Origin: Curvibacter lanceolatus ATCC 14669
GTDB taxonomy: Bacteria > Pseudomonadota > Gammaproteobacteria > Burkholderiales > Burkholderiaceae_C
Assembly: GCF_000381265.1 (NCBI RefSeq)
Contig: NZ_KB906257.1
Location: 186,001-250,000, forward strand
Reading direction: 5' to 3'
Length of the DNA stretch: 64,000 nt
Shown here piece after piece: positions 1 to 14,714 of the stretch. How positions within the stretch are numbered: the first letter of the stretch is position 1; the number at the start of each line of letters is the position of its first letter. The notes beneath the pieces are model-generated. The model was given only the letters and a program-made list of their open reading frames with translations, searched no databases and was not told the DNA's origin. The position numbers were made by a program, and so were the translations under genes.

Positions 1-1
1 C

Positions 2-1135
2 GAAACCAACCGCCTGCTGGGTCTGGCCAAGGAGCTGGCACCGTCCAAGTCTTCGGCCGCCTACAACCGCGAGCTCGACATGCTGGCCGCCACTGGCGAG
101 CAGGCTTCGTCGGCCTTGCTGGCCATCGCACTGCAGGCAGAGGGCATGGAGTCGGTCAGCTACGCTGGCTGGCAGGTGCCCATCAAGACCAACAGCGCCT
201 TCACCAAGGCCCGCATCGAATCCATCGATGACGACCGTGTGCGTGCCGACCTGGCCGCTGGCAAGGTGGTGGTCATCACCGGCTTCCAGGGTGTGGACGA
301 AGAGGCCAACATCACCACCCTGGGCCGTGGCGGCAGCGACACCTCGGCCGTGGCCGTGGCCGCCGCCATGAAGGCTGCCGAGTGCCTGATCTACACCGAC
401 GTGGACGGCGTCTACACCACCGACCCGCGCGTGGTGGCCGAAGCCCGCCGCCTGCAGACCGTGAGTTTTGAAGAAATGCTCGAAATGGCCTCGCTGGGCT
501 CCAAGGTGCTGCAGATCCGCTCGGTCGAATTTGCCGGCAAGTACAAGGTGCCGCTGCGCGTGCTGTCCAGCTTCACCCCGTGGGACATTGACATCAACGA
601 AGAAGCCAAGTCCGGCACGTTGATCACTTTTGAGGAAGACGAAAAAATGGAACAAGCCGTCGTATCCGGCATCGCGTTCAACCGTGACGAAGCCAAGGTT
701 TCCGTCCTGGGCGTGCCCGACAAGCCCGGTATCGCATACCACATCCTGGGCGCCGTCGCCGATGCCAACATCGAAGTCGACGTGATCATCCAGAACCTCA
801 GCAAAGACGGCAAGACCGACTTCAGCTTCACCGTGCACCGTGGCGAATACGCCCGCACCGTCGAACTGCTGAACACCAAGGTGCTGCCCAGCCTGGGCGC
901 CGCCGAAGTGGTGGGCGACACCAAGATCTGCAAGGTCAGTATCGTCGGCATCGGCATGCGCAGCCATGTGGGCGTGGCCAGCAAGATGTTCCGCAGCCTG
1001 TCGGAAGAAGGCATCAACATCCAGATGATCTCCACCTCCGAAATCAAGACCTCGGTCGTGATCGACGAAAAGTACATGGAACTCGCCGTGCGCGCCCTGC
1101 ACAAGGCATTCGATCTGGACCAGCCGGTTTCCTGA
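2..1135 (+). CDS. lysC: Aspartate kinase, C-terminal part (5' end outside window)
   Basis: Aspartokinase phosphorylates L-aspartate, the first step to lysine, threonine, methionine and diaminopimelate. The frame is open from base 2, so the gene enters from the left; 377 residues are visible of roughly 420 usual, and the N-terminal start of the kinase domain is missing. Visible kinase motifs are RGGSDTSAVAVAAA (nucleotide-binding region) and TDVDGVYTTDPR. The C-terminal half holds two ACT domains, the first beginning at VSGIAFNRDEAKVSV and the second at VSIVGIGMRSHVGV, which is the feedback-sensing arrangement of the single-function, lysine/threonine-regulated class. It lies 37 bases before tRNA-Ser, an order I associate with Comamonadaceae. 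The reading frame is intact. Confidence 0.96.
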   Translation, partial: ETNRLLGLAKELAPSKSSAAYNRELDMLAATGEQASSALLAIALQAEGMESVSYAGWQVPIKTNSAFTKARIESIDDDRVRADLAAGKVVVITGFQGVDEEANITTLGRGGSDTSAVAVAAAMKAAECLIYTDVDGVYTTDPRVVAEARRLQTVSFEEMLEMASLGSKVLQIRSVEFAGKYKVPLRVLSSFTPWDIDINEEAKSGTLITFEEDEKMEQAVVSGIAFNRDEAKVSVLGVPDKPGIAYHILGAVADANIEVDVIIQNLSKDGKTDFSFTVHRGEYARTVELLNTKVLPSLGAAEVVGDTKICKVSIVGIGMRSHVGVASKMFRSLSEEGINIQMISTSEIKTSVVIDEKYMELAVRALHKAFDLDQPVS

Positions 1136-1160
1136 AACAGGCCAAAAACTAGGCTAGAAT
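1132..1160 (+). promoter_or_regulatory. Candidate sigma-70 promoter for tRNA-Ser
   Basis: TAGAAT at 1155-1160 resembles a -10 box and CTGAAA at 1132-1137 is a weak -35 (four of six matches), with 17 bases between. The predicted start would fall a few bases before the tRNA at 1173. The -35 half overlaps the lysC stop codon. This is pattern matching only. Confidence 0.35.
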
Positions 1161-1172
1161 AGCGGAATTGCT

Positions 1173-1265
1173 GGAAACGTGACCGAGTGGCCGAAGGTGC
1201 TCCCCTGCTAAGGGAGTATGGGGTGTAGAGCCTCATCGAGGGTTCGAATCCCTCCGTTTCCGCCA
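1173..1265 (+). tRNA. tRNA-Ser (anticodon GCT)
   Basis: The acceptor stem pairs GGAAACG (1173-1179) with CGTTTCC (1255-1261), followed by discriminator G and an encoded CCA (1263-1265). The anticodon stem CTCCC/GGGAG (1200-1204 and 1212-1216) closes the loop CTGCTAA, so the anticodon is GCT at 1207-1209 and reads AGC/AGU codons. The T arm is GAGGG-TTCGAAT-CCCTC, and a long variable arm follows the anticodon stem, as expected for serine tRNAs. A degraded copy of its 3' end lies at 6139-6155, which marks it as the integration target of the following island. Confidence 0.97.
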
Positions 1266-1268
1266 GCA
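1252..1268 (+). repeat. Left attachment-site repeat (tRNA-Ser 3' end)
   Basis: CTCCGTTTCCGCCAGCA, made of the last bases of tRNA-Ser plus three beyond CCA, matches CTCCGATTCCGCCACCA at 6139-6155 at 15 of 17 positions in the same orientation. Elements that integrate into tRNA genes leave exactly this sort of 3'-end direct repeat. The intact tRNA is on this side. Confidence 0.7.
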
Positions 1269-1278
1269 ACTTTCAAAG

Positions 1279-1300
1279 ACGGACCTTCGGGTCCGTTTTT
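1279..1300 (+). terminator. Intrinsic terminator of tRNA-Ser
   Basis: The stem ACGGACC/GGTCCGT (1279-1285 and 1290-1296) closes a TTCG loop and runs into five T residues. The same 7-bp stem recurs at 6165-6182 next to the second att-like repeat. Confidence 0.9.
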
Positions 1301-1401
1301 CGTTTGTGCTGCGAATTCCCTGTCAGGCATCGGGATGCATCGCTTTTGACCCAGCCTGTATCGGGCGGATCCACACGCAGTCATGATGAAGCCATGGCGG
1401 T

Positions 1402-1922
1402 TCAGAGTGCTTTGCCGGTTTTCAGGAGCTGGACCAGCTTGGCAAGTGTTGGGAAATCCGGAGCCTTTTGTTCAATCAAGGCCTGGTTGAAGTGCTGGGG
1501 CATGGATAGCGCCGATGCATCGCATCCAAAATGGTGTTTGAAGCGGTTTTTCAGTTGATCGGTGTTCAAGCCCTCCACCGGGGCGCCTGCGATTCCCAGC
1601 AGCAAGGCCTCCAGGCAGGGGGGGCACAGCAAGGGCAAGATGCCATGTTTTTGGGCTGTTTTACGCGTGCTGTCATTCCAGCCCACGTCGGTATCGAACA
1701 GGGCGGCTACCGCGTCAAAGCCCTTGTTCTGACACTGCCGACGCGCTACGTCGATGACGTTTTCGCCCCTTTTCCATGGGCGTTCTTGATGGTGACGGCA
1801 ACGCCTGAACCCCGATGCACATACAACGCCTTCAAAAGGCCCAGAAAGGCCACCTCGGCATCGCCTTCCCCGACCAGCAAGAGGGTGAGCGCTGCAGCGT
1901 GTTTGGACGCAGCCTTTTTCAT
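1402..1922 (-). pseudogene. rloB-like: RloB-like protein with a -1 frameshift
   Basis: Two reading frames join to give one RloB-family protein of about 173 residues. The N-terminal part from ATG 1922 contains LLLVGEGDAEVAF (the TOPRIM-like E-G motif, Glu19) and HGKG. It then hits a stop near 1746. The -1 frame continues as GENVIDVARR, FDAVAALFDTDVGW (D-x-D motif) and LPLLCPPCLEALLLG, which matches the family's P-C-x-E signature, and ends at 1402. The break maps near the CCCC/TTTT run at 1766-1773; one missing base would explain it. RloB is the partner of the RloA ATPase in the restriction-linked RloAB and AbiL-like pairs. It follows the ATPase by about 80 bases on the same strand. It could be a real mutation, a sequence error in a homopolymer, or (less likely, since no good slippery heptamer is present) programmed frameshifting. 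Confidence 0.72.
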
Positions 1923-2004
1923 CGTCGGGCTGTACCCAGTTGAATAGCGAGCCCCTGGGAGGCAGTGACCACGCGCAGCAAGAGAGCGCAGGGGCACCTG
2001 TTTG

Positions 2005-3189
2005 TCATAGCTGGGGCACCGCGCCGTAGGCTCCGGCCATGTACTTGGCGTAAAGGTTGTCGTCGTTTCGCACGCCACTGACACTGTCCAGGCGCCAGGC
2101 TGTACTTTGGTTGGTCTCGTCTTTCTCAACCAGCATGACCTGGGATTTATGGACCAGGTTGAGCACTTCGACGGCGTGGCATGTGAACAGCAACTGGGCG
2201 GCGTGTGGATTGGTGCGGGGGCTCGCAAAAAGCTCCATCAGGGGTTCAAGCATCAAAGGGTGCAGGTCGTTCTCGAATTCATCAATGACGGCCAAGCCAC
2301 CGCCGGCCAGCGCTGGCAGCAACTTCGACAGCAAGACCAAGGCACTCTGGGTGCCGTTGGATTCAAGCATGAATGGCAATTCGAAATCCATCGCCGGACT
2401 GGACGCGTGGACACCAAAAGGCAGCCACACCTTGCCCTTGCTGCCATCAGGCTGCAGGGTCTCGATTTCCCGAAGCTGGATGTCTTTCAAGCCCAGGTCC
2501 CAGCTCTTGAGCAAGGAGACGGCTTGCTTCATCTGTGTGCCCTGCTGCGAGAAATGCGTGGCGGCCTGAACGAGCTGGCCCGGGTCATTGACCTGACGAC
2601 CGAACTGATGGAGGTTGCTGAACACCATGCCCGCGCCGAGCCGTTGCGCCAACTCGACACCATACTGGGCCGCCGTCGCGATCAATGAGGCGTTGGGCCG
2701 CACTTTCCGTGCTTCGGATGCGGCAAGACCAAAGCCTTGCTGCTTGACGTCGTAGCTTTGCGTGCCGTCATTCCAGTCTCTGACAAAGACATAGCGCATG
2801 CGCTCATGTTTCACATAAAGCGCCTCATGCAAGACCCGTTGGGGTGTTGCCCGCAGGACATGGCGCCACAGCTTGCCTTCGAAATCGACTTCCAGCTCGA
2901 ATTCGGAAGGCGCGTCGGCCGCTGCCAAATGGGGTTGGAACGGCATCAGTCCTTGGTGCGGGTCTGCAAATGAGTGGGAGATGAACCACTTCAGGAACAA
3001 AATGGGTTTGAGCAAAGCGGTTTTGCCGCTGGCATTGGCACCCACAACAGCCATGACCCGGCTGATGCGCTCGCCATGGGGCGCTTGGTGAGACCAGACA
3101 CCCGATGGCACCTTGCCGTCGAGCACCCAGGACACTTCAGTCCGCTCACGGAACGACTGGAAATTGGAAAAGGCATAGCGGTGCAGCAT
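2005..3189 (-). CDS. rloA-like: RloA-like AAA/ABC-type ATPase
   Basis: This encodes a 394-residue ATPase of the RloA/AbiL group (AAA_15/AAA_21 type, related to OLD and SMC-like ATPases). Visible motifs are the N-terminal strand MLHRYAFSNFQSF, which is how the family starts, Walker A GANASGKT (residues 50-57), Walker B LAVIDEF with the D-E pair at 303-304, a D-loop-like NDLHP, and a switch histidine in LLFTCHA. I start at ATG 3189 because it matches the family N-terminus; ATG 3198 and TTG 3276 are in frame upstream, and no start has a convincing ribosome-binding site. It lies upstream of the frameshifted RloB gene and downstream of a DUF2726 gene and a small broken gene. Family knowledge suggests an abortive-infection or anti-phage role; its target here is unknown. 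Confidence 0.85.
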   Translation of the reverse strand: MLHRYAFSNFQSFRERTEVSWVLDGKVPSGVWSHQAPHGERISRVMAVVGANASGKTALLKPILFLKWFISHSFADPHQGLMPFQPHLAAADAPSEFELEVDFEGKLWRHVLRATPQRVLHEALYVKHERMRYVFVRDWNDGTQSYDVKQQGFGLAASEARKVRPNASLIATAAQYGVELAQRLGAGMVFSNLHQFGRQVNDPGQLVQAATHFSQQGTQMKQAVSLLKSWDLGLKDIQLREIETLQPDGSKGKVWLPFGVHASSPAMDFELPFMLESNGTQSALVLLSKLLPALAGGGLAVIDEFENDLHPLMLEPLMELFASPRTNPHAAQLLFTCHAVEVLNLVHKSQVMLVEKDETNQSTAWRLDSVSGVRNDDNLYAKYMAGAYGAVPQL

Positions 3190-3206
3190 GCCTTGCATTG
3201 GATCAC

Positions 3207-3228
3207 AATCCACAAAAAAATGTGGATT
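3207..3228. promoter_or_regulatory. Perfect inverted repeat just upstream of the ATPase start
   Basis: AATCCACA (3207-3214) and TGTGGATT (3221-3228) form a perfect 8-bp inverted repeat with an A6 centre. On the coding (minus) strand it ends 9 bases before ATG 3198 and 18 before ATG 3189. It could be an operator or a translation-controlling hairpin. If the TTG at 3276 is the real start it would lie inside the coding sequence. Confidence 0.45.
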
Positions 3229-3283
3229 ACCGCATTTAATGTGGACGATGTCTTGAGCTTGGGTATCGGTGGTCAAGCGGTGA

Positions 3284-3646
3284 TCATCGCTGCAGGCGCC
3301 CCAACAGAAGAACCCTCACCCGTTTCAACTGCTGGTCGGTCACCCCCGACAGCTCCTGTGCCCGATCGCGGTACGTCGGTACGCCCTGGCTGACCTGATC
3401 AGCCCCAAATGATGCAAACCTGCCATGCGCTGGGCCTTGCTCGTACAGCCCACTGAGGGTGCCCCGGCGGCGGGCTGGTCAGGCCTGGGCGTGACAAGCA
3501 CACGCACGGGCAGGTCGGTCGACCTCGAACAACAGATCGCCGGTGTGGGCGTCAACGTACTTGACCTCGTAGTGGATGACCGTTGCCAGTAGATGGGGCT
3601 GCGTTTTCGCCCCTGGGCAGTGCGGCGTGGCAGTCTCAATCCGCAA
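3284..3646 (-). pseudogene. Broken small gene between DUF2726 and RloA-like genes
   Basis: One minus-strand frame reads like protein on both sides of an in-frame TGA at 3479-3481. The upstream part includes HLLATVIHYEVKYVDAHTG and DLLFEVD. The downstream part includes LYEQGPAHGRFASFGADQ, TYRDRAQELSGVTDQQLKR and ends LLLGRLQR with a stop at 3284. Between them the neighbouring frame reads DLPVRVLVTPRPDQP, so a pair of compensating indels (near 3500 and 3440) would restore one protein of about 120 residues. A TTG at 3646 overlaps the end of the DUF2726 gene and the stop is 8 bases from the most upstream ATPase start, which fits an operon member. I do not recognise the family. The protein-like character is my judgement and is unproved. 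Confidence 0.42.
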
Positions 3647-4151
3647 CGGCGGTTGCAGCCAAAGGCACGGGTGCCGCGACCGGGAAGAGGGTTGTGATCA
3701 GCTCGCCCCGGTCGGGCACGTTCTTGAAGCGGATCACGCGGTAGCCGGCATTGGTCAGCAGGCTTTCACGCGCGCCGTCTTCTTTTTCGCGCCCGCGATG
3801 CGAGGCATCGTCCAGTTCGATGACGGCCACCACCTCAAAGGCTTTGGTGAACACCACAAAGTCGGCCGTCTTGCGGTTGAAGGTGTTGCGTGTGGCTTGT
3901 TGTCGGGATGCCAGCAGGGCCGAGAACGACACCTGCGCCAGCACGACATGGGTGCGCTCAGACAGCACCTCGCGCAGGCGCCAATACATGGCTTGCTCGC
4001 GTTCGGTGAGGGCGGCCTTCTTCTTGGGCCTTTCCGCTTTGGCTGAGGCTTTGGCATGGCCTGCTGATTTTTGCCTTTGGGTGGCCATCAGCACCCCCAG
4101 CCCGATCACCACCATCAGGGCGATCGGCAAGCCCAAAGAACCCAACTGCAT
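3636..4151 (-). CDS. Membrane-anchored DUF2726 protein (nuclease-like fold)
   Basis: A 171-residue protein with one N-terminal membrane helix (about residues 7-23), a Lys/Ala-rich linker (25-48) and a DUF2726 domain (about 50-155). The domain shows the family pattern: ER..YW.LREVL, then VLAQVSFSALL, then TADFVV (Asp97) and VAVIELDDASH (Glu112, Asp114), then a short region ending GYRVIRFK. DUF2726 is considered a PD-(D/E)xK-like nuclease fold and is common beside mobile and DNA-processing genes. It is the first gene of a minus-strand run leading into the RloA-like ATPase, so it may belong to that system. Its reading frame is intact. Substrate and activity are unknown. Confidence 0.8.
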   Translation of the reverse strand: MQLGSLGLPIALMVVIGLGVLMATQRQKSAGHAKASAKAERPKKKAALTEREQAMYWRLREVLSERTHVVLAQVSFSALLASRQQATRNTFNRKTADFVVFTKAFEVVAVIELDDASHRGREKEDGARESLLTNAGYRVIRFKNVPDRGELITTLFPVAAPVPLAATAVAD

Positions 4152-4260
4152 GTGCTACTCCCTATTTTATGGGTCGGATTTTGCCATTTTTGAGTGTTTG
4201 CTCGGCCAATGCGCTGCGTCATCGCCGCGCCTGATGAGGTCCGATGCCGGGTGAGGGTGG

Positions 4261-4849
4261 GTGGTATTGGGTCTGCCGTCGGTCATCCGGGTTTTATCGA
4301 CCCGAGAACAAGAAACACACCTGCAGATTGACGCGCTGAATGCCGCAGGGGTCGAGGCCATCTATCAAAAGAAGACGTCCAGCGTTGGCGCTGGGCCTGA
4401 GCTGCAAAAGTGCCTTGGATGCCCTGGGCAAGGGTGACGTCTTGGTGGTCTACAAGATCGATCGCATTGCGCGTTCGCTAAAGGATCTGCTGGCCATCCT
4501 GGACCGCATCAGGGAATCCGGCGCACTGGTGGGCTCACTAACTGAGCCGCTGGATACGACATTGGCCATGGGGGCGTTTGTGATTCAGATCCTGGGGGCG
4601 GTGGCCCAACTGGAGCGGGCCATCATCCGGGAGCGCGCAATAGCGGGCCAGCAGCCCGCGATTGCGCGAGGTGCGAAGGTGGGCCGTCGCCGGGCCTCGT
4701 CTGCGGAACATGAGGCGGAGGTTGTCAGGCGCTACGAAACTGGATTGCATACACTCAATGGCCTGGGCACCAGGTTTGGTGTTTCTCTGTCGGTGATCAA
4801 GCGAGCGGTGTACCGGGTGCGCGATCCAGGGCACTCAAGTCTCAAATGA
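4261..4849 (+). pseudogene. Serine recombinase (resolvase/invertase), frameshifted
   Basis: The N-terminal part reads RVLSTREQETHLQIDALNAA and IYQKKTSSVGAGPELQK, the classic start of a Tn3-type resolvase. It then loses frame in 4411-4420. One extra base there moves the rest into the frame LDALGKGDVLVVYKIDRIAR, then LGAVAQLERAIIRERAI, and a C-terminal helix-turn-helix (TLNGLGTRFGVSLSVIK) to the stop at 4849. The active-site segment should read RVST; here a leucine is inserted before the Ser-Thr. The usual M-x-x-GYA start is not recognisable before 4282. Both defects argue for a dead gene. It is probably a leftover of a transposon or invertase module inside the island. Confidence 0.78.
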
Positions 4850-4914
4850 AATCTGCCGTCGTTGTAGACTTATTCTCCGGATTGCGCTATGAACTCTGAA
4901 ATTCGCGGGCATTC

Positions 4915-5730
4915 TCAAACAACAATCGGCCTTTTGACTACCCAGACATCCTGCTCTAGCGAGTAAGAGGTCGGCGATTCGATATGTTGGACAACAACGC
5001 AATCTTTCAATAGATGATTAATCACGAAATCTGGGGGGTGGAAAGCTGAAAAATGTTTTTTTCCTTCTTGAATTTGATCCTTGACTACTAATTGACCAAT
5101 CTCATACTTCTCCCTATCAGCCAGTAGCAGTCGGTTCTTGAATATATCGCCTTGCGTCGTGAAAATTAGAATGCCATCAGGCTTAAGTGCCTTCAGTAAT
5201 TCATCCATCCACTCGTAATGCATTCTTTCAGAAAGGTGGGTAAATACTGATAGTGCGTAAATGCAATCAAAATCCTTAATCGGATTTGGCAAAGGCGGCT
5301 TAAGTTGTGACGTCATGAAGCTAATAGAATCTATGTTTTTTTGGCACCACCTTATCGATTCCTTGTTGTAGTCAGCACCGAAAATATCTATTTTTCGAAA
5401 TCCTTCAATCTTAGTGAGATGCCTTATTACGCGTGCTGGACCGCAGCCCCACTCGAAAATTTTTATATTTTGTTCTTTGACGTGTTTCTTTATTAGGTCC
5501 GCAATCAATTCAGCATGGCGGCGGCCCATGTCATGATACGTTTGCCAACGTACATGATTGTATGCATCGTAGGCGAGATGAGCCGGAGGGGTTTTGAAAT
5601 ATGGATTCTGTAAGCTAAATCTACGGTTTGGAAAATAATTCCGAAGCCGCTCGATGATTAGTAGGGCGCTGTCTGCTAGTTGTAGGAGATGAATTTTCCT
5701 CAATATTTCAGCAATTTTTCGTTTTAACAT
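4915..5730 (-). CDS. Class I SAM-dependent methyltransferase (AT-rich, acquired)
   Basis: A 271-residue protein with a Rossmann-type methyltransferase domain. Motif I is IFEWGCGPARV (residues 91-101), an acidic residue ends strand 2 (FGADYN, Asp120), motif IV is DCIYALS (155-161), and LKPDGILIF (182-190) is the post-IV strand. The family is that of UbiE/Methyltransf_11-25 enzymes acting on small molecules, lipids or sugars; the substrate cannot be read. It starts at ATG 5730 after an AT-rich stretch. The whole gene is far more AT-rich and uses more AAA/ATT/TTT codons than its neighbours, a strong sign of recent transfer. No neighbouring glycosyltransferases are present to suggest a surface polysaccharide role. 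Confidence 0.85.
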   Translation of the reverse strand: MLKRKIAEILRKIHLLQLADSALLIIERLRNYFPNRRFSLQNPYFKTPPAHLAYDAYNHVRWQTYHDMGRRHAELIADLIKKHVKEQNIKIFEWGCGPARVIRHLTKIEGFRKIDIFGADYNKESIRWCQKNIDSISFMTSQLKPPLPNPIKDFDCIYALSVFTHLSERMHYEWMDELLKALKPDGILIFTTQGDIFKNRLLLADREKYEIGQLVVKDQIQEGKKHFSAFHPPDFVINHLLKDCVVVQHIESPTSYSLEQDVWVVKRPIVV

Positions 5731-5779
5731 TATGTTCTCGACGTTTGGTGAATGGTTTTCAATAGTCTAATGATTTTAT

Positions 5780-5995
5780 TTGTCTTCTCAGTACTTCTCC
5801 TCTTGGGGAGAGCCTCGGCCATCAGGGATTATCTTCTTCTGCCGCCCGGACTCCAAGCCAGTCGAGTTCTTCGACGAAGACATCTACAACCTTGACTGGA
5901 TTGTCTTGCCCGATGTAGTCGTCCAGGCACTCCGGCAGTATAGAGACCTGCCTTCGATGAATCTCTTCATGCGCCGCCTCGCTCAGTACGGGTGA
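5780..5995 (+). CDS. Hypothetical fragment (C-terminal end of an unknown protein)
   Basis: Up to 71 codons, opening at a TTG, read protein-like: GEPRPSGIIFFCRPDSKP, EFFDEDIYNLDWIVLPD, VVVQALRQYRDLPSMN, then a stop. There is no ATG before the conserved-looking part and an in-frame stop sits just upstream, so it is more likely the 3' remnant of a truncated gene than a complete small gene. Base composition is intermediate between the AT-rich methyltransferase and the GC-rich core. I cannot assign a family. It sits near the right edge of the island. Confidence 0.35.
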   Translation: MSSQYFSSWGEPRPSGIIFFCRPDSKPVEFFDEDIYNLDWIVLPDVVVQALRQYRDLPSMNLFMRRLAQYG

Positions 5996-6138
5996 TCAGA
6001 TTTTACGAAGATCACGGGCGTTTCCACACAGTCTCGGCCCATTTCAGACATGGGCCTTTTGCCCTGAGTCGGTTTGCAGGCTCGATGAATCCGCTGTTTT
6101 TTTGCGATGTACGCATGGCAGGATCTGGGGCCAGATTT

Positions 6139-6155
6139 CTCCGATTCCGCCACCA
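6139..6155 (+). repeat. Right attachment-site repeat (degraded tRNA-Ser 3' end)
   Basis: CTCCGATTCCGCCACCA matches the tRNA-Ser 3' end at 1252-1268 at 15 of 17 positions; going further left the match fades (about 17 of 24 over 24 bases). It is followed after 9 bases by a terminator hairpin with the tRNA terminator's stem. I interpret it as the old tRNA end displaced when the element integrated. Confidence 0.68.
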
Positions 6156-6160
6156 CATAA

Positions 6161-6186
6161 AAAAACGGACCCAAAGGTCCGTTTTT
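6161..6186. terminator. Bidirectional terminator, twin of the tRNA-Ser terminator
   Basis: An A-run (6161-6165), the stem ACGGACC/GGTCCGT (6165-6171 and 6176-6182) with a CAAA loop, then a T-run to 6186 can act on both strands. It would end the minus-strand small membrane gene at 6210. The stem is identical to that after tRNA-Ser at 1279. Confidence 0.85.
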
Positions 6187-6209
6187 CACATCTGCACGTC
6201 AAACCCCCC

Positions 6210-6455
6210 TCACGGAAAGCTCAACTCCAACCCCAGCGTGCTCGCCAGCTCGAAGGTGACCACGCCCAGAACCAGCAGCGACAGCATGAAGCCGGCGGCC
6301 ACCTTGCCGCTGGCGCGCAGCAAGGCTCGGGTCTCTTGTTCGCGCTGTTTCTTGTCCTTCTTGCCTTGGTCGTAATGCCATTTGATGGCGTAGAACATGC
6401 CGGTGCCCAGCACGAGCAGCTTGAAGGTGGCGAAGACGATGGGGATCCAGTCCAT
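6210..6455 (-). CDS. Small two-helix membrane protein, 81 aa
   Basis: From ATG 6455 the protein begins MDWIPIVFATFKLLVLG and has two predicted membrane helices (about residues 3-22 and 50-72) separated by a highly charged segment, YDQGKKDKKQREQETR (29-44). An AGGAAAG stretch about 10-16 bases upstream can serve as ribosome-binding site. It ends just before the bidirectional terminator at 6161-6186. It is transcribed divergently from the MocR regulator at 6594, with about 140 bases between them. A much longer open frame extends upstream on the same strand but is antisense to the regulator and is not real. No function recognised. Confidence 0.7.
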   Translation of the reverse strand: MDWIPIVFATFKLLVLGTGMFYAIKWHYDQGKKDKKQREQETRALLRASGKVAAGFMLSLLVLGVVTFELASTLGLELSFP

Positions 6456-6593
6456 GATTTGGGGGCTTTCCTGGTGGTTGATCGATGCCGTTGGCAGTGC
6501 AGGGGGTGAACAGCCACGATGGCCTGCAAGAGCGGTGGGGTGGCCTGTCCTTGGGCATACTAACCAAAAGCAATTTCCATACATTGAGACAAA

Positions 6594-8060
6594 ATGCCCA
6601 CCCCAAAAAGCATACAAGATGAGGCTTTGCCAAGCTGGTTGCCGCTGCTGGCGGTGCGCGGTGGGCCCCGTTTTTTGCAGATTGCGGACGCCGTGCAGGC
6701 GGCGGTGGCTGATGGATCGCTGAAGCCCGGTGACCGTCTGCCGCCGCAGCGCCAGATGGCCGCGTGGCTGGCGGTGGACCTGACGACGGTCACGCGCGCC
6801 TACGACGAGGCGCGGCGCCGCAGGCTGCTGGAGGGGCGTGGTGCCCGGGGCACCTATGTGGCGGCGCCCAAGGTCGAGCTGAGCGCCGTGCTCGACCTGA
6901 GCATGAACACCCCGCCACAGCCGCAGGGGGTGGATTTTGACGACCTGTTGAAACAAGGCCTGTCTCAAGTGCTGATGAGGGCCGATGGCGGCATGTTGAT
7001 GACCTACCACCTGGCCGGCGGCAGCGACTCCGACCGCCAGGCTGGGGCCCGGTGGCTTGAGCCCATGTTGGGGCCGCTGGAGGCCAGTCAGTTGGTGGTC
7101 TGCCCGGGGGCGCAGGCGGCCATCGCCGCCTTGATGCTGGCGTTGACGGGGCCGGGCGATGTCATCCTCACAGAGCCGATGGGCTACCCGGGCTTGCGCG
7201 CCGCGGCCACCCAATTTGGCCGGCGCATCCAGGTGGTGGAGGCGGACGAGCAGGGCATGCTGCCCGATCGGCTGGAGCAAGCCTGCCGCCAGCACCAGCA
7301 CCAGCACCAGCACCAGCACCAGCACCAGCACCAGCACCAGCACCAGCACCAGCACCAGCACCCGCCCGGGCTGCTCTACCTCAATCCGACCTTGCAGAAC
7401 CCGACCGCCATCACCATGCCGCAGCACCGGCGCCAGGCGCTTGCCAGCGTGGCCCAGCGCTGCCAGCTGCGCATCATCGAAGACGACCCCTACTGGCGCC
7501 TGGCCGATGCCGCGCCCCCTCCGGTGGCCACCTATGCGCCAGAGCAGGTGTACTACATCTCCACCCTGTCGAAATGCCTCACGCCCGGCTTGCGGGTGGC
7601 CTACGTGTTGATGCGCGACCCGCAAGAGCGGGAGCGCTTTCTGCTCGCGCTGAGGTCTTTTGCGCTGATGGCGGCCCCGCTGAGCGCCGCCCTGGCCACG
7701 CAGTGGATCTTCGACGGTTCGGCCGACGGCTTGATGCAAGGCGTGCGCCAGGAGGCGCGCCAGCGCCACTGGATGGCCCGGGATGTGCTGGCCGGGCGCT
7801 ACAGCGGCGCTGGCGACGGCCTGCATGTGTGGCTGCAGTTGCCGGCGTACTGGAGCCCCTCGCAACTGGCCCGTGCCGCCGACAGCGAGGGCATTGCCGT
7901 CACGCCGGCAGAGGCCTTTGCCATGGGCAGCAGGTCGGCCAATGCCATCCGGATCTCCTTGGGCGGCATCCAGGACCGTGGGCGCTTGCAGGCCGGCCTG
8001 CAGCGGCTGTCGCAGTTGCTGGCGCGGCAGCCCGAGGCGTTCAGCGCTGCCGTGGTTTGA
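6594..8060 (+). CDS. MocR-family regulator (GntR HTH fused to aminotransferase) with a QH repeat
   Basis: A 488-residue MocR/GabR-type protein. A GntR winged helix (about 25-95; LKPGDRLPPQRQMAAWL, DLTTVTRAYDEA) is followed by a class I/II aminotransferase-like domain with the PLP lysine in STLSKCLTPG (Lys327) and LYLNPTLQNPT. MocR proteins use PLP or amino-acid-derived ligands to switch transcription, usually of divergent neighbours; here the divergent gene is the small membrane protein at 6210. Residues 233-256 are twelve Gln-His pairs encoded by twelve perfect CAGCAC repeats, inserted in a loop before the LYLNP strand. I know of no such insert in the family. The start at ATG 6594 gives the expected N-terminal length. 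Confidence 0.88.
   Translation: MPTPKSIQDEALPSWLPLLAVRGGPRFLQIADAVQAAVADGSLKPGDRLPPQRQMAAWLAVDLTTVTRAYDEARRRRLLEGRGARGTYVAAPKVELSAVLDLSMNTPPQPQGVDFDDLLKQGLSQVLMRADGGMLMTYHLAGGSDSDRQAGARWLEPMLGPLEASQLVVCPGAQAAIAALMLALTGPGDVILTEPMGYPGLRAAATQFGRRIQVVEADEQGMLPDRLEQACRQHQHQHQHQHQHQHQHQHQHQHQHPPGLLYLNPTLQNPTAITMPQHRRQALASVAQRCQLRIIEDDPYWRLADAAPPPVATYAPEQVYYISTLSKCLTPGLRVAYVLMRDPQERERFLLALRSFALMAAPLSAALATQWIFDGSADGLMQGVRQEARQRHWMARDVLAGRYSGAGDGLHVWLQLPAYWSPSQLARAADSEGIAVTPAEAFAMGSRSANAIRISLGGIQDRGRLQAGLQRLSQLLARQPEAFSAAVV
7290..7361 (+). repeat. Hexanucleotide microsatellite (CAGCAC)12, in frame
   Basis: Twelve perfect, uninterrupted copies of CAGCAC lie inside the MocR gene and encode (Gln-His)12. 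Six-base units change length without breaking the frame, so slippage would vary protein loop length, not switch the gene off. Confidence 0.97.
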
Positions 8061-8477
8061 CTGGCCCGGCAGCCGGGCGCGCCGTGCAGGGGGGCTCTGC
8101 AGGCGCTCGCACCTGGGGCGGCCAGGGCGCGGGGGCCCGGCCCGTCATGTGCCGTTGTTGTTCGTTCAATGAACTCACACTATTTCTGTTCAAGAAATAT
8201 TACAAATTCAAATACCAGTTTTTATTGTGCGTCATGACTTGATTGTCACGAAGCCGAGACGGGTGACGGGCAAAGTTGGCACAGCCTTGCCATCGTGGTT
8301 CGGCAAACGAACGGGGTCAGCGGGTGATGGGCTTGTGTGGCCCGGGCTTGCCAAGCCCCGTTCAAGCAACTTGTTGCCGCCATGCCCCGCAGGCGAACTG
8401 CCCGTGCGGGTGAGGTCGGCATCGCCTTTCAACGCAATCTAGTCGTCAGCCAGGCGCTGACGAATCGAGGACACATG
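8061..8477 (+). promoter_or_regulatory. Long porin upstream region with AT-rich operator-like repeats
   Basis: This 417-base stretch holds no gene I can support. Its middle (about 8150-8240) is strikingly AT-rich for this genome and probably contains the porin promoter. Two perfect inverted repeats are visible: GTTCA-A-TGAAC (8164-8174) and TATTTCT/AGAAATA (8181-8187 and 8193-8199) around GTTCA. If transcription starts here, the porin mRNA would have a 5' leader of over 200 bases, a common target of small RNAs. I could not assign -35/-10 boxes confidently. The remaining sequence is GC-rich and featureless. Confidence 0.4.
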
Positions 8478-9629
8478 ATGAAAAAGACCCTGATCGCTCT
8501 GGCCGCCCTGGGCGCGCTGACTTCGGTGGCGCAAGCCCAATCGAGCGTGGCTTTGTATGGCCTGCTGGACAGTGGCGTGCGCCACGACAGCGCCGGCCCC
8601 AAGGGCAGTGCGGGCAACACCGGTACGCAGAACCTGTTCACCTCGGGCATTCTGAACACCTCGCGCTTCGGCTTCCGTGGCACGGAAGACCTGGGCGGCG
8701 GCATGAAGGCCAACTTCAACCTGGAGTCGGGCATCAACGCGGGCACGGGTGCCGGCTCCAGCACCAGCAACATCTTCGACCGCCGCGCCGTGCTGGGCAT
8801 GGAAGACAGCTGGGGCCGTGTCGACATCGGCCGCAACACCACCTTTGCCTATGACCTGCAGGCGGGCTATGTGAACGATCCGCTGGGCCAGGAGCTGACC
8901 ACCAACCGCCAGAACGCCGCCGTGTCGGCCACCTCGGTGAACCCCCTGGGCACCCTGGTGGGTTCGGCCTTGGACACCTCGCGCCGCGACAACATGGTCA
9001 AGTACCTGAGCCCCAAGCTGGCAGGCACCAACCTGGGCCTAGCTTACTCGTTCGGCAACGTGTCGGGCTCCACCGCCGCCAACTCGTCGGTGCAGTTCAT
9101 GGCCAAGTACGACGTTCGCCCCCTGCAACTGGGCCTGTCGTACGACCGCCTGCGCGACACCGCCGGCCGCAAGCAAACCCTGTTGACCACGGGCGGCAAC
9201 TACATCTTCGAAGGCTACAAGGTCACCGGTGGCTACACCCAGATGCAGGCCGACGCCGGCTTTGTGAACAGCAACACCTCGATCCTGACCAACTCGGGCT
9301 CCAGCACCTCGCTGTACAAGTTCCTGGCCGGCGCCTCGGCCAGCACCACCGGCCTGAAGGCCGCGGTGTTCGACCTGGGCGTGGGCTTCAATGCCACGCC
9401 GCTGACCCAGGTGGTGGTGGCCTACTACAACACCAAGTACAGCGCCGATGGCCTGTCGTCCAACCGCTATGACACCTTTGCCGCCCGCGCCCGCTACACC
9501 CTGAGCAAGCGCACCGACCTGTACGCCGCCATCGACTACACCAAGGCCAAGGGCATGACGGCCGCCCAGACCGCCAGCGGCACCACCAGCAACACCGGCC
9601 TGTCGGTCGGTATCCAGCACCGCTTCTGA
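8478..9629 (+). CDS. Outer-membrane porin (Gram-negative porin, Burkholderiales type)
   Basis: A 383-residue trimeric beta-barrel porin. The signal peptide MKKTLIALAALGALTSVAQA ends in AQA with mature QSSVALYG. Typical segments are SRFGFRGTEDLGGGMKANF (the strand-L1 signature), a regular pattern of aromatic-ended beta strands such as ARARYTLSKRTDLYAAIDY, and a C-terminal phenylalanine (GIQHRF) needed for barrel assembly. The start is ATG 8478 with GAGG 7 bases upstream; an ATG one codon earlier is too close to that site. It allows diffusion of small solutes; specificity is not readable. It is followed by an intrinsic terminator, so it is monocistronic. Confidence 0.93.
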   Translation: MKKTLIALAALGALTSVAQAQSSVALYGLLDSGVRHDSAGPKGSAGNTGTQNLFTSGILNTSRFGFRGTEDLGGGMKANFNLESGINAGTGAGSSTSNIFDRRAVLGMEDSWGRVDIGRNTTFAYDLQAGYVNDPLGQELTTNRQNAAVSATSVNPLGTLVGSALDTSRRDNMVKYLSPKLAGTNLGLAYSFGNVSGSTAANSSVQFMAKYDVRPLQLGLSYDRLRDTAGRKQTLLTTGGNYIFEGYKVTGGYTQMQADAGFVNSNTSILTNSGSSTSLYKFLAGASASTTGLKAAVFDLGVGFNATPLTQVVVAYYNTKYSADGLSSNRYDTFAARARYTLSKRTDLYAAIDYTKAKGMTAAQTASGTTSNTGLSVGIQHRF

Positions 9630-9700
9630 CGGGCTGAACCGGGCGGGCGCTGCCGCGCCGGCCCGGTTTCCCAGGTGATTTTTCATTGCGTTTTACCCGC

Positions 9701-9727
9701 CCCGCCTGCCAGCGTGGCGGGTTTTTT
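9701..9727 (+). terminator. Intrinsic terminator after the porin
   Basis: The stem CCCGCC/GGCGGG (9701-9706 and 9716-9721) with a 9-base loop is followed by six T residues. It lies 70 bases after the porin stop and before the convergent LysR gene. Confidence 0.8.
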
Positions 9728-9747
9728 CATGGGGGCGGCTCATCGGC

Positions 9748-10692
9748 TCATCGGCCCACCGTGCGCTGCAGCCCCATGAAGCTGGTCCATTTGCGCTCGG
9801 CCTCATCGCGCTCGAACTCGGCCACCATGAAGTCGATGAAGGAGCGCACCTTGGCCGACAGGTGCCGCCGGTTGGGGTAGGCGATGTTGATCTGGATGCG
9901 GGGCAGGTCCCAGTCGTTGAGTAGCGGCACCAGCCGGCCCGCCACGATGTCGTCGTACACGATGTAGCTGGGCTGCACCAGAATGCCCAGGCCGCTGAGC
10001 GCGGCGGCGCGCAGCACCTGGCCGTCGTTGGATTCGAGCAGGCCCTGGATGGGCACGGTCTGGGTGTGGTCGCCCCGGCTCAGACGCAGCTCGTGGGCGT
10101 TGTTGGCGTGCACATAGATCAGAAAGTCGTGGCCCGCCAGCGCTTCGGGCGTCTGGGGCTGGCCCCGCTCGGCCAGGTAGCTGGCCGAGGCGCACAGCAC
10201 CCGGCGGGTCGAGCCCAGGCGCCGGATGGTGATGCTGCTGTCGGGTTCGAACTCGCGGTTGCGGATGGCCACATCGATGCCGTTGTCGATCATGTCCAGG
10301 TAGCGGTTGGCGGTTTCGATGTGGATGCGCACCTGGGGGTAGAGCTGGTGGTAGCGCACCAGGCGCGGCGCGATCTGCTGCATTGAAAACGACAGCGAGG
10401 CGCTGATGCGCAGCACGCCAGACGGGTTCAAGGTGCTGGAGTGGACGGCCGCCTCGGCCTCTTTCAGCTCGGCCAGCAGGGCGCGGGCGCGTTCGTAAAA
10501 ATCCTGCCCCTCGCTGGTCAGGTACAGGCGCCGCGTGTTGCGCTCGACCAGGCGGGCACTGAGCCGGGCCTCGAGTGAGGCCAGGTAGCGGCTGGCGGCC
10601 GGGTTGGACAGGCCCAAGGCCTCGGCCGCGCCGCCCAGGCTGCCCAGTTCGGCCACTTTGACAAACAGTTCCAGCTCGGTGAGGCGATCCAT
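9748..10692 (-). CDS. LysR-family regulator of the hydroxyquinol operon
   Basis: A 314-residue LysR regulator. The N-terminal winged helix (about 1-60) contains ELFVKVAELGSLGGAAEALG and NPAASRYLASLEARL; the rest is a two-lobed periplasmic-binding-like effector domain starting near residue 90 (GVLRISASLSF). It belongs to the CrgA/DsdC-like LTTR subgroup judged by the FYERARALLAELKEAE linker. It is divergent from the dioxygenase gene at 10806, the standard layout for an LTTR controlling an aromatic-degradation operon. A 10-bp palindrome spans its own start codon (10691-10713), fitting autoregulation. The effector is probably a pathway intermediate (inference). Confidence 0.9.
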   Translation of the reverse strand: MDRLTELELFVKVAELGSLGGAAEALGLSNPAASRYLASLEARLSARLVERNTRRLYLTSEGQDFYERARALLAELKEAEAAVHSSTLNPSGVLRISASLSFSMQQIAPRLVRYHQLYPQVRIHIETANRYLDMIDNGIDVAIRNREFEPDSSITIRRLGSTRRVLCASASYLAERGQPQTPEALAGHDFLIYVHANNAHELRLSRGDHTQTVPIQGLLESNDGQVLRAAALSGLGILVQPSYIVYDDIVAGRLVPLLNDWDLPRIQINIAYPNRRHLSAKVRSFIDFMVAEFERDEAERKWTSFMGLQRTVGR

Positions 10693-10713
10693 ATTTCCAT
10701 TTTATGGAAATAT
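10691..10713. promoter_or_regulatory. Palindromic operator overlapping the LysR start codon
   Basis: ATATTTCCAT (10691-10700) and ATGGAAATAT (10704-10713) form a perfect 10-bp inverted repeat with a TTT centre. The left arm includes two bases of the LysR ATG (10690-10692). It contains the T-N11-A shape bound by LysR proteins and lies about 93 bases before the dioxygenase start. Binding here would block LysR expression and could activate the divergent operon. Confidence 0.65.
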
Positions 10714-10805
10714 GATTTCCTTTGAATGCTGTTTTATTCTTCTGCGTGAAATTCTAAAGTGTCACCCAGGGCCCAGGCAGAGGCCTCAACCCCAGGAGAC
10801 ACGGC

Positions 10806-11642
10806 ATGCGCAACCTCAATCAAGACAACATCACCCAGGCGGTCATCGCCAGCTTTGGCGACACCCGCGACCCCAGGCTCAAAGAGATCATGATCAGCCT
10901 GGTGCAGCACCTGCATGCCTTTGCCCGCGAGGTGAAGCTGACCGAGGCGGAGTGGTTTGCAGGCATCGAGTTCCTGACCCGCTGCGGCCACATCACCGAC
11001 GAGCGCCGGCAAGAGTTCATCCTGCTGTCCGATGTGCTGGGCCTGTCGATGCTCACGGTGGCCATGAACCAGGACAAGCCCCATGGCTGCACCGAGGCCA
11101 CGGTGTTCGGGCCCTTCCATGTCAAGAACGCCCCCCATTACGAGCTGGGGGCCGACATCTCCAACGGCGCCAAGGGCACACCCTGCCTGGTGCGCGGTCG
11201 GGTGCTCGACACCCGGGGCCAGCCGGTGGCCGGGGCGCATCTGGATGTCTGGCAGTCGGACGAGGACGGCCTGTACGACGTGCAGCACGAGGGCCTGACC
11301 CAGGCCCAGGCGCGCGGCACCTTGAACGCCGATGCCCAGGGCCGCTACCACTTCCGCTCCATCGTGGCCGTGCCCTACGCCATTCCGCACGATGGGCCGG
11401 TGGGGGCGCTGCTGGAGGCCACCGGCCGCCATCCCTGGCGGCCCGCCCACCTGCACTTCAAGATCGACGCGCCGGGCTACCAGAGCCTGATCACCCATGT
11501 GTTCCGCGATCAGAGCGACTACCTCGACTCGGACGCCGTGTTCGGCGTGCGCCAGTCGCTGGTGTGCGACTGGGTGCCCCAGCCCGACGGCTCTTACCTG
11601 CTGGAGTACGACTTCGTGCTCAACCCGGCCTCGGCGCAATAA
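10806..11642 (+). CDS. Hydroxyquinol 1,2-dioxygenase (intradiol)
   Basis: A 278-residue intradiol dioxygenase that cleaves hydroxyquinol (1,2,4-trihydroxybenzene) with O2 to maleylacetate. The N-terminal helical dimerisation domain (about 1-100) is the dioxygenase_N type (EIMISLVQHLHAFAREVKLT). The Fe(III) ligands line up with those of known hydroxyquinol enzymes by spacing: Tyr157 (GLYDVQ), Tyr191 (VPYAIP), His215 and His217 (PAHLHF). Assignment to hydroxyquinol and not catechol rests on the downstream maleylacetate reductase. It starts at ATG 10806, preceded by AGGAGAC about 10 bases upstream. It heads a five-gene operon with overlapping or nearly touching genes. Confidence 0.9.
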   Translation: MRNLNQDNITQAVIASFGDTRDPRLKEIMISLVQHLHAFAREVKLTEAEWFAGIEFLTRCGHITDERRQEFILLSDVLGLSMLTVAMNQDKPHGCTEATVFGPFHVKNAPHYELGADISNGAKGTPCLVRGRVLDTRGQPVAGAHLDVWQSDEDGLYDVQHEGLTQAQARGTLNADAQGRYHFRSIVAVPYAIPHDGPVGALLEATGRHPWRPAHLHFKIDAPGYQSLITHVFRDQSDYLDSDAVFGVRQSLVCDWVPQPDGSYLLEYDFVLNPASAQ

Positions 11643-11646
11643 CACC

Positions 11647-11946
11647 ATGCTGTACGTCTTTCACCTCATCGACCGGCCCGGGTCGGCCGCGCTGCGCCTG
11701 CAAACGCGCCCCGAGCACAAAGCCTGTCTGGCCCAGCTTCAAGAGCGCATCGCTTTTGCCGGCCCCCTGCTGCAAGACGATGGCCAGACCATGATCGGCA
11801 GCCTGCTGGTCATCGACTTCCCGGGCCGCGCCGCGGCCGAGGCCTGGCTGGCGCAGGAGCCGTTTCACCGCTCAGGCCTGTACGCCAGCGTGCAGATCCA
11901 TGCCTTCAGCAACCTCTGGCCCCAGCGGATCGGATTCGCCCCATGA
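11647..11946 (+). CDS. YCII-domain small protein
   Basis: A 99-residue YCII/dimeric alpha-beta-barrel protein (MLYVFHLIDRPGSAALRLQT; FAGPLLQDDGQTMIGSLLVID; AEAWLAQEPFHRSGLY). The fold is related to muconolactone isomerase. The pattern H-x6-L then G-P-L-L and D-P-F/EPFH is typical of the family. It starts 4 bases after the dioxygenase stop and overlaps the next gene by 4 bases, so it is co-translated. A role in hydroxyquinol or lactone handling is likely from context, but the exact reaction is not known. Confidence 0.85.
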   Translation: MLYVFHLIDRPGSAALRLQTRPEHKACLAQLQERIAFAGPLLQDDGQTMIGSLLVIDFPGRAAAEAWLAQEPFHRSGLYASVQIHAFSNLWPQRIGFAP

Positions 11947-12299
11947 ACCCCGGCCCACACGTGCGCCACATCGTGATGTGGAACATCGCCGGGGCCAGCC
12001 CGGCAGAAAAGCGCGCCAACATCGAGCGCCTGCGCCAGGGCTTTGAGCGGCTCAGGGGCCGCATCCCCGGCCTGCTGCAGCTGGACATCGGTGTGGACAG
12101 CAGCGGGGTCGACTACGCCTGCGATGTGGTGCTCTACAGCGAGTTCGCCTCCCAGGCCGCCCTGGATGCCTACGCCACCCACCCCGAACACCTGCAACTG
12201 AAGGCCGCACTGGGCAGCATGCGCACGGCGCGCCATCAGGTGGACTACGCCTGGGCGCCCCTGGCGGCCGCGATCGACACCCCGGAGCCACCCCAATGA
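11943..12299 (+). CDS. Dabb (stress-responsive A/B barrel) protein
   Basis: A 118-residue protein of the Dabb family. It begins with VRHIVMWNIAGASPAEKR and continues with FERLRGRIPGLLQLDIG, DVVLYSEFASQAALDAYATHPEH, the family's signature His and Asp-Ala-Tyr-Hxx-H elements. Dabb proteins are small dimers; some are aromatic-pathway cyclases or isomerases, others are of unknown role. ATGA overlaps at both ends tie it to its neighbours. Two adjacent small alpha-beta-barrel proteins between the dioxygenase and reductase suggest an accessory isomerisation or protective step (inference). Confidence 0.85.
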   Translation: MNPGPHVRHIVMWNIAGASPAEKRANIERLRQGFERLRGRIPGLLQLDIGVDSSGVDYACDVVLYSEFASQAALDAYATHPEHLQLKAALGSMRTARHQVDYAWAPLAAAIDTPEPPQ

Positions 12300-13405
12300 A
12301 CGACTTCATCTACCAGGCCCAATCGCCTCGCGTCGTGTTTGGCGCCGGTTCGCTCCAGCACCTGGAGCGCGAAATCGATCTTCTGGGCGCGCGGCGGGCG
12401 CTGGTCTTGTGCACCCCGCAGCAGGCCGGGGCGGCCCAGGCCGTGGTCGATCGCCTGGGCCCGCGTGCGGCGGGCCTGTACGCCCAGGCCGTGATGCACG
12501 TGCCCATCGAAACCGCCCGTGCGGCCCGTGCCGAGGCCGCCCGCCTGCAGGCCGATTGCGCCATCGCGCTGGGTGGCGGCTCGACCATCGGGCTGGGCAA
12601 GGCCATCGCCCTGGAGTCGGGGCTGCCGATCGTGGCCATTCCCACCACCTATGCCGGCAGCGAGATGACCCCGATCTACGGCATCACCGAGGCCGGCCTC
12701 AAGAAGACGGGGCGCGATCCCCGCGTCCTGCCGCGCACCGTGATTTACGACCCCGAGCTGAGTCGCAGCCTGCCCCTGGCCCTCAGCGCCACCAGCGGCA
12801 TGAACGCCATGGCCCACGCGGTCGAGGGCCTGTACGCCAGCGACAGCAACCCCATCCTGGACCTGATGGCCGAGGAGGGCATCCGGGCCCTGGCCACGGC
12901 CTTGCCGCAGATACGCCAGCAGCCCCCTCACCCTGGCTCGGGCCCGGGCCCGTCGGCCCAGGCTGGCGAAGCCCGCGCCCAGGCCCTGTATGGCGCCTGG
13001 TTGTGCGGCAGCGTGCTGGGGCAGGTGAGCATGGCCTTGCACCACAAGCTCTGCCACACCCTGGGCGGCAGCTTCAACCTGCCCCATGCCGAAACCCACA
13101 CCGTGGTGCTGCCGCATGCGCTGGCCTTCAATCTGCCGCAGGTGCCCCTGGCCGCCCAGCGCATCGCCCGGGCGCTGGGCCTGCCCCACGCGGGGCAAGC
13201 CGCCACCGGCCTGTACGACCTGGCCCGCTCGCTGGGCACGCCGCTGAGCCTGCGTGAGCTGGGCCTGCAAGAGCGCGACCTCGACCGCGTCTGCGAACTG
13301 GCCCTGACCCAGCAATACCCCAACCCGCGGCCCCTGGAGCAGGCCGCGCTGCGCCAGCTTTTGCAAATGGCCTACGAAGGCACCCGGCCGGGCACGCCGG
13401 ACTGA
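12296..13405 (+). CDS. Maleylacetate reductase
   Basis: A 369-residue member of the iron-containing alcohol dehydrogenase superfamily. It reduces maleylacetate to 3-oxoadipate with NAD(P)H, delivering carbon to the beta-ketoadipate route. Visible features are FGAGSLQHLEREI near the N-terminus, the dinucleotide-binding GGGSTIGLGKAIAL, the substrate loop PTTYAGSEMTPIYG, and SGMNAMAHAVEGLYA, with a helical C-terminal half. Those segments are characteristic of the maleylacetate reductase branch. It overlaps the Dabb gene by ATGA and is followed after 24 bases by the Bug gene. Confidence 0.92.
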   Translation: MNDFIYQAQSPRVVFGAGSLQHLEREIDLLGARRALVLCTPQQAGAAQAVVDRLGPRAAGLYAQAVMHVPIETARAARAEAARLQADCAIALGGGSTIGLGKAIALESGLPIVAIPTTYAGSEMTPIYGITEAGLKKTGRDPRVLPRTVIYDPELSRSLPLALSATSGMNAMAHAVEGLYASDSNPILDLMAEEGIRALATALPQIRQQPPHPGSGPGPSAQAGEARAQALYGAWLCGSVLGQVSMALHHKLCHTLGGSFNLPHAETHTVVLPHALAFNLPQVPLAAQRIARALGLPHAGQAATGLYDLARSLGTPLSLRELGLQERDLDRVCELALTQQYPNPRPLEQAALRQLLQMAYEGTRPGTPD

Positions 13406-13429
13406 ACCCCACAACAACCAGGAGACAAC

Positions 13430-14482: not shown

Positions 14483-14714
14483 GGAGCTCGCCCCGGCCTG
14501 ACTCGCACGGGGCAGAACGGGGCTGCTTCATGGCGTTGCGCAGGCGTTCGGACGGGTTTCATTTCAACGCTTTGAGGGGGGCTTGGATTGGTCGTCCGTC
14601 AGCATCAAACGCCCGTCGGCTGCGGCACCGCGAGCGCGGGCTTTTCCCGACGCGCTTGGCCGGGCTGGGGCATGGTTGACGTTTTGACCGCCTTGCGGTC
14701 CATCGGAAGACCAG

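Follow-up and report, generated by a model that had tools for sequence, protein, structure and literature searches.

Islands at transfer RNA (tRNA) genes are mostly regarded as products of tyrosine integrases, and small resolvase-like serine recombinases are mostly regarded as invertases or resolvases. The described elements closest to the locus reported here are the filamentous phages phiRSM1 and phiRSM3 of Ralstonia. In published accounts (PMC3816273, PMC4471427), phiRSM1 is described with a 13-bp core corresponding to a tRNA-Ser 3' end and with a resolvase-like integrase, both integration and excision at the core are reported for the phiRSM recombinase, and in both phages the integrase is ORF14, with attP lying between ORF14 and ORF15. 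In this study we analyzed a 64,000-nt stretch of contig NZ_KB906257.1 of Curvibacter lanceolatus ATCC 14669 (the window; coordinates are window positions unless another locus is named), in which a small island with predicted defence genes follows a tRNA-Ser(GCT) gene. In our reading, to which we assign a probability of about 0.87, the stretch 1253-6152 is what deletions have left of a filamentous prophage (inovirus) of the phiRSM type.

As in phiRSM1 and phiRSM3, going by their published description, the island has a small serine recombinase of the resolvase/invertase type and a 13-bp core at the 3' end of a tRNA-Ser gene, and in the relatives analyzed here the core lies near the integrase gene. 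Unlike these phages, as far as that description allows the comparison, the island targets tRNA-Ser(GCT) and not the UCG tRNA; moreover, it has defence-like genes in place of phage genes, and both its integrase and its attR are mutated. Measured against the hallmarks of the phiRSM group, the recombinase is present but broken, and the left core is exact while the right core has one substitution in 13 (the copy is exact in 11 of 12 relatives). The pI/Zot, replication and coat genes were not recognized, so the locus would best be filed as a relic derived from a phiRSM-type phage and not as a member of the group. A further relative is Dulem virus 61 (Inoviridae, PP511899.1), the best named-phage match of the recombinase, with 51.5% identity over 99% of the integrase from Curvibacter gracilis, a species of the same genus that bears the island as well. 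In its circular record the recombinase likewise adjoins a tRNA-Ser-like 3' end and an antisense gene, but it is annotated as a complete phage, with no AbiL annotated. The other 39 matches listed (from 498 records) reach about 41-44% and, where annotated, are mostly invertases. With islands formed by tyrosine integrases (Islander type), our locus shares the displaced tRNA 3' end that marks the other boundary; it differs in its serine recombinase and in being a small element of apparent filamentous-phage origin. Among titles and abstract openings of open-licence papers we found no such island in Curvibacter or Comamonadaceae.

The integration target, tRNA-Ser(GCT), was located by ARAGORN at 1173-1265 on the plus strand, downstream of lysC. 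This lysC-tRNA stretch is matched in 59 of the 60 genomes searched, the strain's own included, although in two of them by a short piece only. An earlier note on this DNA had described a repeat at the tRNA 3' end and had proposed a shuffle test for it. The repeat is real: CTCCGTTTCCGCCAGCA (1252-1268) and CTCCGATTCCGCCACCA (6139-6155) are identical at 15 of 17 positions in the same orientation, the last three bases of the 17-mer falling beyond the CCA of the tRNA, and the window holds no further site with up to 3 mismatches on either strand. When 1269-9745 was simulated 400 times with a first-order Markov model, in place of exact shuffles, one of the sequences contained a plus-strand match of this quality, and for this reason the 17-mer match by itself would be suggestive but not conclusive. 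The case is strengthened by a feature that the note had missed. A terminator, ACGGACC-N4-GGTCCGTTTTT with a 7-bp stem, follows both CCA ends, after 13 bases on the left (1279-1300) and after 12 bases on the right (6165-6186), and the exact stem occurs at only these two sites, each after a copy of the tRNA 3' end, in the whole 6.83 Mb assembly (72 contigs). As judged from the sequence, the shared terminator settles that the repeat is real, and the repeated unit would therefore consist of the tRNA 3' end plus its terminator, about 50 bases in degraded form. That the repeat arose by chance beside a tRNA where unrelated accessory genes happened to gather is an explanation we consider practically negligible: it could draw on the one simulation in 400 and on the variable DNA that the genus has at this place, but it does not account for a terminator stem unique to the two sites, for the break of synteny at the core, or for the related phages found at this kind of core.

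Within the repeat, the 13-bp att core TCCGTTTCCGCCA (1253-1265, plus strand) would be the present-day attB and at the same time the attL of the old element; its length and position are those of the published phiRSM core. The right core TCCGATTCCGCCA (6140-6152, plus strand), the putative attR, carries the one substitution, and at the same place C. gracilis has TCCGCTTCCGCCA (L039:7572-7584). The right cores of both species deviate from the tRNA at the identical position, each with a different base. The version seen at the right end in the window is also the tRNA-Ser 3' end of another genome (G330, locus L186).

The earlier claim that no integrase is recognizable proved to be wrong. Positions 4340-4849 match the Pfam Resolvase family (2.7e-22) as well as PHROGs, and we regard 4294-4849 (plus strand) as the relic of a small serine recombinase of the phiRSM type, with unrecognizable first codons and a frameshift near 4430. 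By tblastn a full-length phage integrase aligns to the relic in two frames, from residue 8 on. The similarity starts at residue 8 in C. gracilis too, which is why the gene loss is probably older than the split of the two species. The relic lies on the attR side in the correct orientation, with about 1.3 kb of cargo between it and attR.

To place this recombinase among its relatives, we used the C. gracilis protein as the query against 299 genomes of the family; matches at E <=1e-20 came from 64 of them, our own and C. gracilis included, and from the top of the matches listed, with some passed over, 40 loci (L141-L180) were fetched with flanks. In 12 of these a tRNA-Ser gene lies 6.0-9.3 kb upstream, always in the same orientation (GCT in four, TGA in seven, CGA in one), and no other kind of tRNA lies upstream in that orientation in the 40 loci. 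Eleven of the 12 carry exactly one exact copy, 13-15 nt long, of the 3' end of their own tRNA past the recombinase, at 36-311 bp from the integrase match in nine loci and at 2.1-2.2 kb in two; other matches to the tRNA 3' end within 18 kb per locus are at most 11 nt long. All 12 have the filamentous-phage assembly gene Zot by Pfam, and all three loci scanned for replication or DNA-binding genes (L127/L147, L144 and L162) have them. The core of L144 contains the published 13-bp phiRSM core in reverse complement. A tree of 36 recombinases was built from 34 of the 40 loci together with C. gracilis and the window (L171, L173, L174, L175, L177 and L179 were omitted, their recombinase match being shorter than 480 bases). 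In this tree the six GCT-associated integrases, from five genera of one family and including the window and C. gracilis, form one side of a branch (support 81/89) that recurs in 77% of 200 bootstrap trees, and none of 500 label shuffles was as good. The GCT branch and the 11 of 12 prophages with an exact copy thus offer a test set for target choice by small serine recombinases. They also suggest a search rule for filamentous prophages and their remains, namely a copy of the tRNA-Ser 3' end past a small serine recombinase.

Two side observations concern these loci. In L160, L164, L165, L169, L170 and L171 a tRNA-Met or tRNA-Arg gene lies 1.7-3.1 kb downstream and no tRNA-Ser upstream, a hint that these recombinases may prefer a different site. 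A single genome holds two copies of one inovirus, L161 and L162 (99.96% identity across 7.3 kb), one at tRNA-Ser and the other without a tRNA in the fetched stretch; the second copy brings the tRNA 3' end along.

Tyrosine integrases do use this tRNA end. In genome G018 (L050) the 3' end of tRNA-Ser(GCT) has been copied exactly over 14 bp in a prophage, where a tyrosine integrase adjoins the second CTCCGTTTCCGCCA copy and a Phage_capsid gene lies in between. The metagenome contig L215 shows what appears by eye to be a tailed-phage lysis cassette (L215:1-4013), which ends at the same 13-bp core and adjoins the left end of an inovirus; phages of two kinds may use this tRNA end in tandem there. 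Hence one could suppose a P4-like tRNA island of the tyrosine type, whose integrase gene was later lost and which received the serine recombinase as cargo. We searched the island for a remnant of such an integrase and rejected the candidate: beyond Resolvase, the Pfam matches of the scanned frames included no integrase, and the G018 integrase has no significant match in the island, with chance-level matches only elsewhere. The recombinase, in turn, is correctly oriented, lies towards attR and falls into the tRNA-Ser(GCT) branch, and the left end of the island matches inoviruses. An origin of the P4-like kind is therefore very unlikely in our view.

The left end of the element (1266-1326, plus strand), which includes the terminator stem 1279-1300, is similar to the left ends of inoviruses in two contigs from other metagenomes, with 94% identity to L214 (up to 1318) and 90% to L215 (up to 1326); the left end of C. 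gracilis matches both over 86-89 bases. In the two contigs the terminator of the window is followed by DNA like window 1304-1318 or 1326 and then by an inovirus Rep gene and its neighbours, and it is preceded by a tRNA end in L214 and by the end of another element in L215. The similarity reaches slightly beyond about 1309, where the Curvibacter sequences without the island diverge. The terminator after attR (6165-6186, plus strand) is taken to be the displaced native terminator of the tRNA, its exact stem being otherwise found only after the tRNA in the assembly. That it might instead be the own terminator of the neighbouring small gene was rejected, as none of six orthologues has the stem in the surrounding 10-13 kb. 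We also gave up the assumption that the terminator at attL has to be the native one, since L214 and L215 carry this terminator at their left end. It resembles that of island-free Curvibacter, yet sits at phage left ends, and the phage copy may have come from a host. As a side observation, a similar pair of like terminators flanks a phage in another genus (L141), and a relative (G328) without a phage in the 1.5 kb seen past its tRNA has nearly the same sequence.

A third metagenome contig places a filamentous phage directly at the core. The IMG/VR contig 3300010965_000426 (L206) is 99.97% identical to window 1253-7331, and immediately to the left of base 1253, the first base of the 13-bp core, a filamentous phage begins, with genes for Rep, a DUF2523 protein, Zot, a full-length recombinase and a 320-residue protein without a Pfam match. 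Related phages thus apparently still use the same tRNA end. Viral contigs also contain relatives of both island components (10 with relatives of AbiLi, the ATPase of the island's predicted defence pair, and 9 with relatives of the C. gracilis integrase). Among the AbiLi-bearing contigs the gene context was examined for L196 and L197. The latter holds an AbiLi-AbiLii pair 1.6 kb outside the attR-like core of an inovirus that has Zot by Pfam, and the 13 bases of this core are exactly those of tRNA-Ser(GCT). AbiL near such a site therefore appears not to be a single case, and it is possible that the pair in L197 is phage cargo.

These contigs bear on another explanation, by which the island is a defence-carrying satellite that never had phage genes and that relied on shared ends to be packaged by a helper filamentous phage. 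In favour of such a satellite, two species carry this gene set and lack phage genes, a strain nearly identical to ours has a phage with this core (L206), and the L197 pair lies outside the core. However, the integrase similarity starts at residue 8 in the window and in C. gracilis alike, as if a single deletion had occurred in their ancestor, a second site with the gene set was not found in nine genomes of the genus, and Zot is present in 12 of 12 tRNA-Ser loci. We consider a satellite improbable, albeit less so than a tyrosine-type island.

Under the favoured reading, that of a prophage relic, the layout from left to right is a phage left end with terminator, AbiLii, AbiLi and DUF2726 (all antisense), a gap where genes appear to have been lost, the recombinase relic, the cargo and attR. 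An inovirus encoding a small serine recombinase of the resolvase-like kind would have inserted its DNA at the last 13 bp of tRNA-Ser(GCT). The new 3' end and terminator of the tRNA would have come from the left end of the phage, and the native ones, pushed aside, would have become attR at 6140-6186. Later, and before the split from C. gracilis, the genes for replication, coat and assembly would have been lost, as would the first integrase codons, with the AbiL-like genes and DUF2726 left behind. The truncated integrase and the substitution in attR would have made the element immobile. The idea of an old, immobilized element at a tRNA 3' end with a drifted right att site thus appears to hold, except that an integrase does exist.

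Several observations weigh against this reading. No phage structural or replication gene was recognized in the island by a Pfam scan, and Zot has no match in the genome of the window; the phage origin therefore rests on the ends, DUF2726 and the integrase. When 756 frames (>=60 residues) of the 12 tRNA-Ser prophages were compared with the island, the matches were confined to the DUF2726 gene of L155 (E 3e-44) and frames overlapping it, the next best having an E value of 0.002. DUF2726 itself is present in just three of the 40 recombinase loci (L155, L165 and L153) and has no match in L213 or L214. Among the 40 loci, 28 have no tRNA-Ser upstream in the fetched DNA, although for four of them less than 7.5 kb upstream was available; L162 alone among the 12 tRNA-Ser loci lacks a right copy; and the distance of about 1.3 kb from the relic to attR contrasts with 36-311 bp in nine of eleven relatives. 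The seven TGA-associated integrases do not form one branch (5 changes; 36 of 500 shuffles were as low). Three Curvibacter genomes that lack the island (G003, G005 and G006) have the attL terminator as well. As for L206, the contig stops short of any tRNA, its phage join adjoins 49 bases common to related phages, so that an assembly error is possible, and a second, suspicious join lies in a CAG-type repeat at window 7331 and could be an assembly fault or a rearrangement. Finally, the empty site that the earlier note had predicted, with the tRNA reading straight into 6156, was not found among the 60 genomes, own genome included; there the 92 bases from 6139 have a full-length match only in our genome and in C. 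gracilis, both with the island.

The same note had stated that close relatives bearing these genes at this site, in the absence of any empty version, would speak against an island, and C. gracilis shows this in form. We judge it to be outweighed by the L206 phage at the same core, by an empty-site pair in another genus and by a swap of the right end that stops within two bases of the core. The pair consists of a sister prophage in G262, in which the DNA past attR is 98% identical over 57 bp to the DNA directly after the same tRNA in G028, a genome of the same genus with no phage at this place; the match resumes after 1.3 kb that are unique to G028. In sequence comparison the sister prophage thus passes the empty-site test.

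The swap becomes visible when the window is aligned with C. gracilis (G002), which shares window 1-4847 and 6138-15156 in order. In between, 1,290 bases (to 6137) are replaced by 1,953 others, which encode a GmrSD_N (DUF262) protein and a HEPN protein, and the shared DNA resumes two bases ahead of the att core. The idea that the whole 4.9 kb is one island is only roughly right, as divergence values show it to be a mosaic. Between the window and C. gracilis, synonymous divergence is 0.066 for lysC, 0.067 for the MocR gene, 0.038 for the porin gene, 0.122 for DUF2726 and 0.091 for AbiLi; the final 94 codons of AbiLii reach 0.416, and the final 140 codons of the recombinase 0.848. The ratio of nonsynonymous to synonymous divergence (dN/dS) in these 140 codons is 0.08, which suggests that the recombinase ends evolved within working integrases. 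Since the recombinase was probably truncated in the ancestor already, the simplest account would be that it recombined with integrase genes of phages that arrived later and lay in tandem with it, as seen in the L206 contig. Such recombination between neighbouring elements, which probably exchanges right-hand cargo, would explain why the two species differ in cargo and on the attR side but have the chromosome beyond in common. On the side of the window, a 46-bp relic of an insertion sequence (IS) end (4872-4917), which borders the integrase relic and the cargo and is 85% identical to four other places in the genome, may have been involved in the swap. In L038 the same IS end sits at the end of an element with transposase-like frames, by eye of the IS3 family.

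As had been noted before, the genes between the repeats are accessory ones, one of them A/T-rich. The AbiLi-like AAA ATPase (2005-3276, minus strand) has an open frame that starts with TTG, with family similarity from residue ~24-30 on. It matches PADLOC AbiLi at 9.6e-73 and Pfam AAA_21 at 1.9e-22, and also the AriA model (2.1e-29), which we take to belong to the PARIS system. Its dN/dS between the window and C. gracilis is 0.16, and the gene would thus be under constraint. The adjoining AbiLii-like gene (1402-1923, start approximate, minus strand; PADLOC AbiLii 3.9e-6) is split by a one-base frameshift. The locus is therefore like the AbiL system in that an AbiLi ATPase has an AbiLii partner adjoining it, and unlike it in that the AbiLii of the window is broken. 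In C. gracilis AbiLii is a full-length reading frame (PADLOC AbiLii 1.5e-11), and for this reason the predicted defence function is more likely there than in the window. Among the nine genomes of the genus, AbiLi has a strong match only in our genome and in C. gracilis.

The third antisense gene, DUF2726 (3636-4151, minus strand; Pfam 9.4e-17), is an accessory gene that also occurs in some related inoviral loci. An antisense counterpart at the left end of the L215 inovirus has 82.7% amino-acid identity to it, and none was matched in L214 or in the phage of L206/L213. DUF2726 genes thus recur in or beside such elements (L155, L165, L153 and L215). Between the integrase relic and attR lies the A/T-rich cargo, a methyltransferase gene (4915-5730, minus strand; Pfam Methyltransf_25 1.5e-9), and the GC content of 4850-6138 is 44.5%, compared with 67% for the window.

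We have thus described a defence-type island whose origin might be traced to a filamentous phage. Tentatively, and with more doubt than confidence, one might go further and see the tRNA-Ser end as a conveyor, at which new phages insert and push older, dying ones downstream; the dead ones would be trimmed to their defence cargo and kept, while neighbours would swap right-end cargo through recombination of their integrase genes. If this were true, chromosomal defence islands of this kind would be a regular product of infection by inoviruses, and not of tailed phages or conjugative elements.

Other DNA is found at this site in Curvibacter genomes that have the tRNA and a similar terminator without the island (G003, G005 and G006). 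In G003, a metagenome-assembled genome, a BrnT/BrnA toxin-antitoxin pair takes the place of the island (L053:136-1783), and other genes are found in G005 and G006. Beyond the island, a (CACCAG)n tract at 7290-7365 encodes a His-Gln run within the gene for a MocR-type regulator, and similar tracts occur elsewhere in the genome and in relatives.

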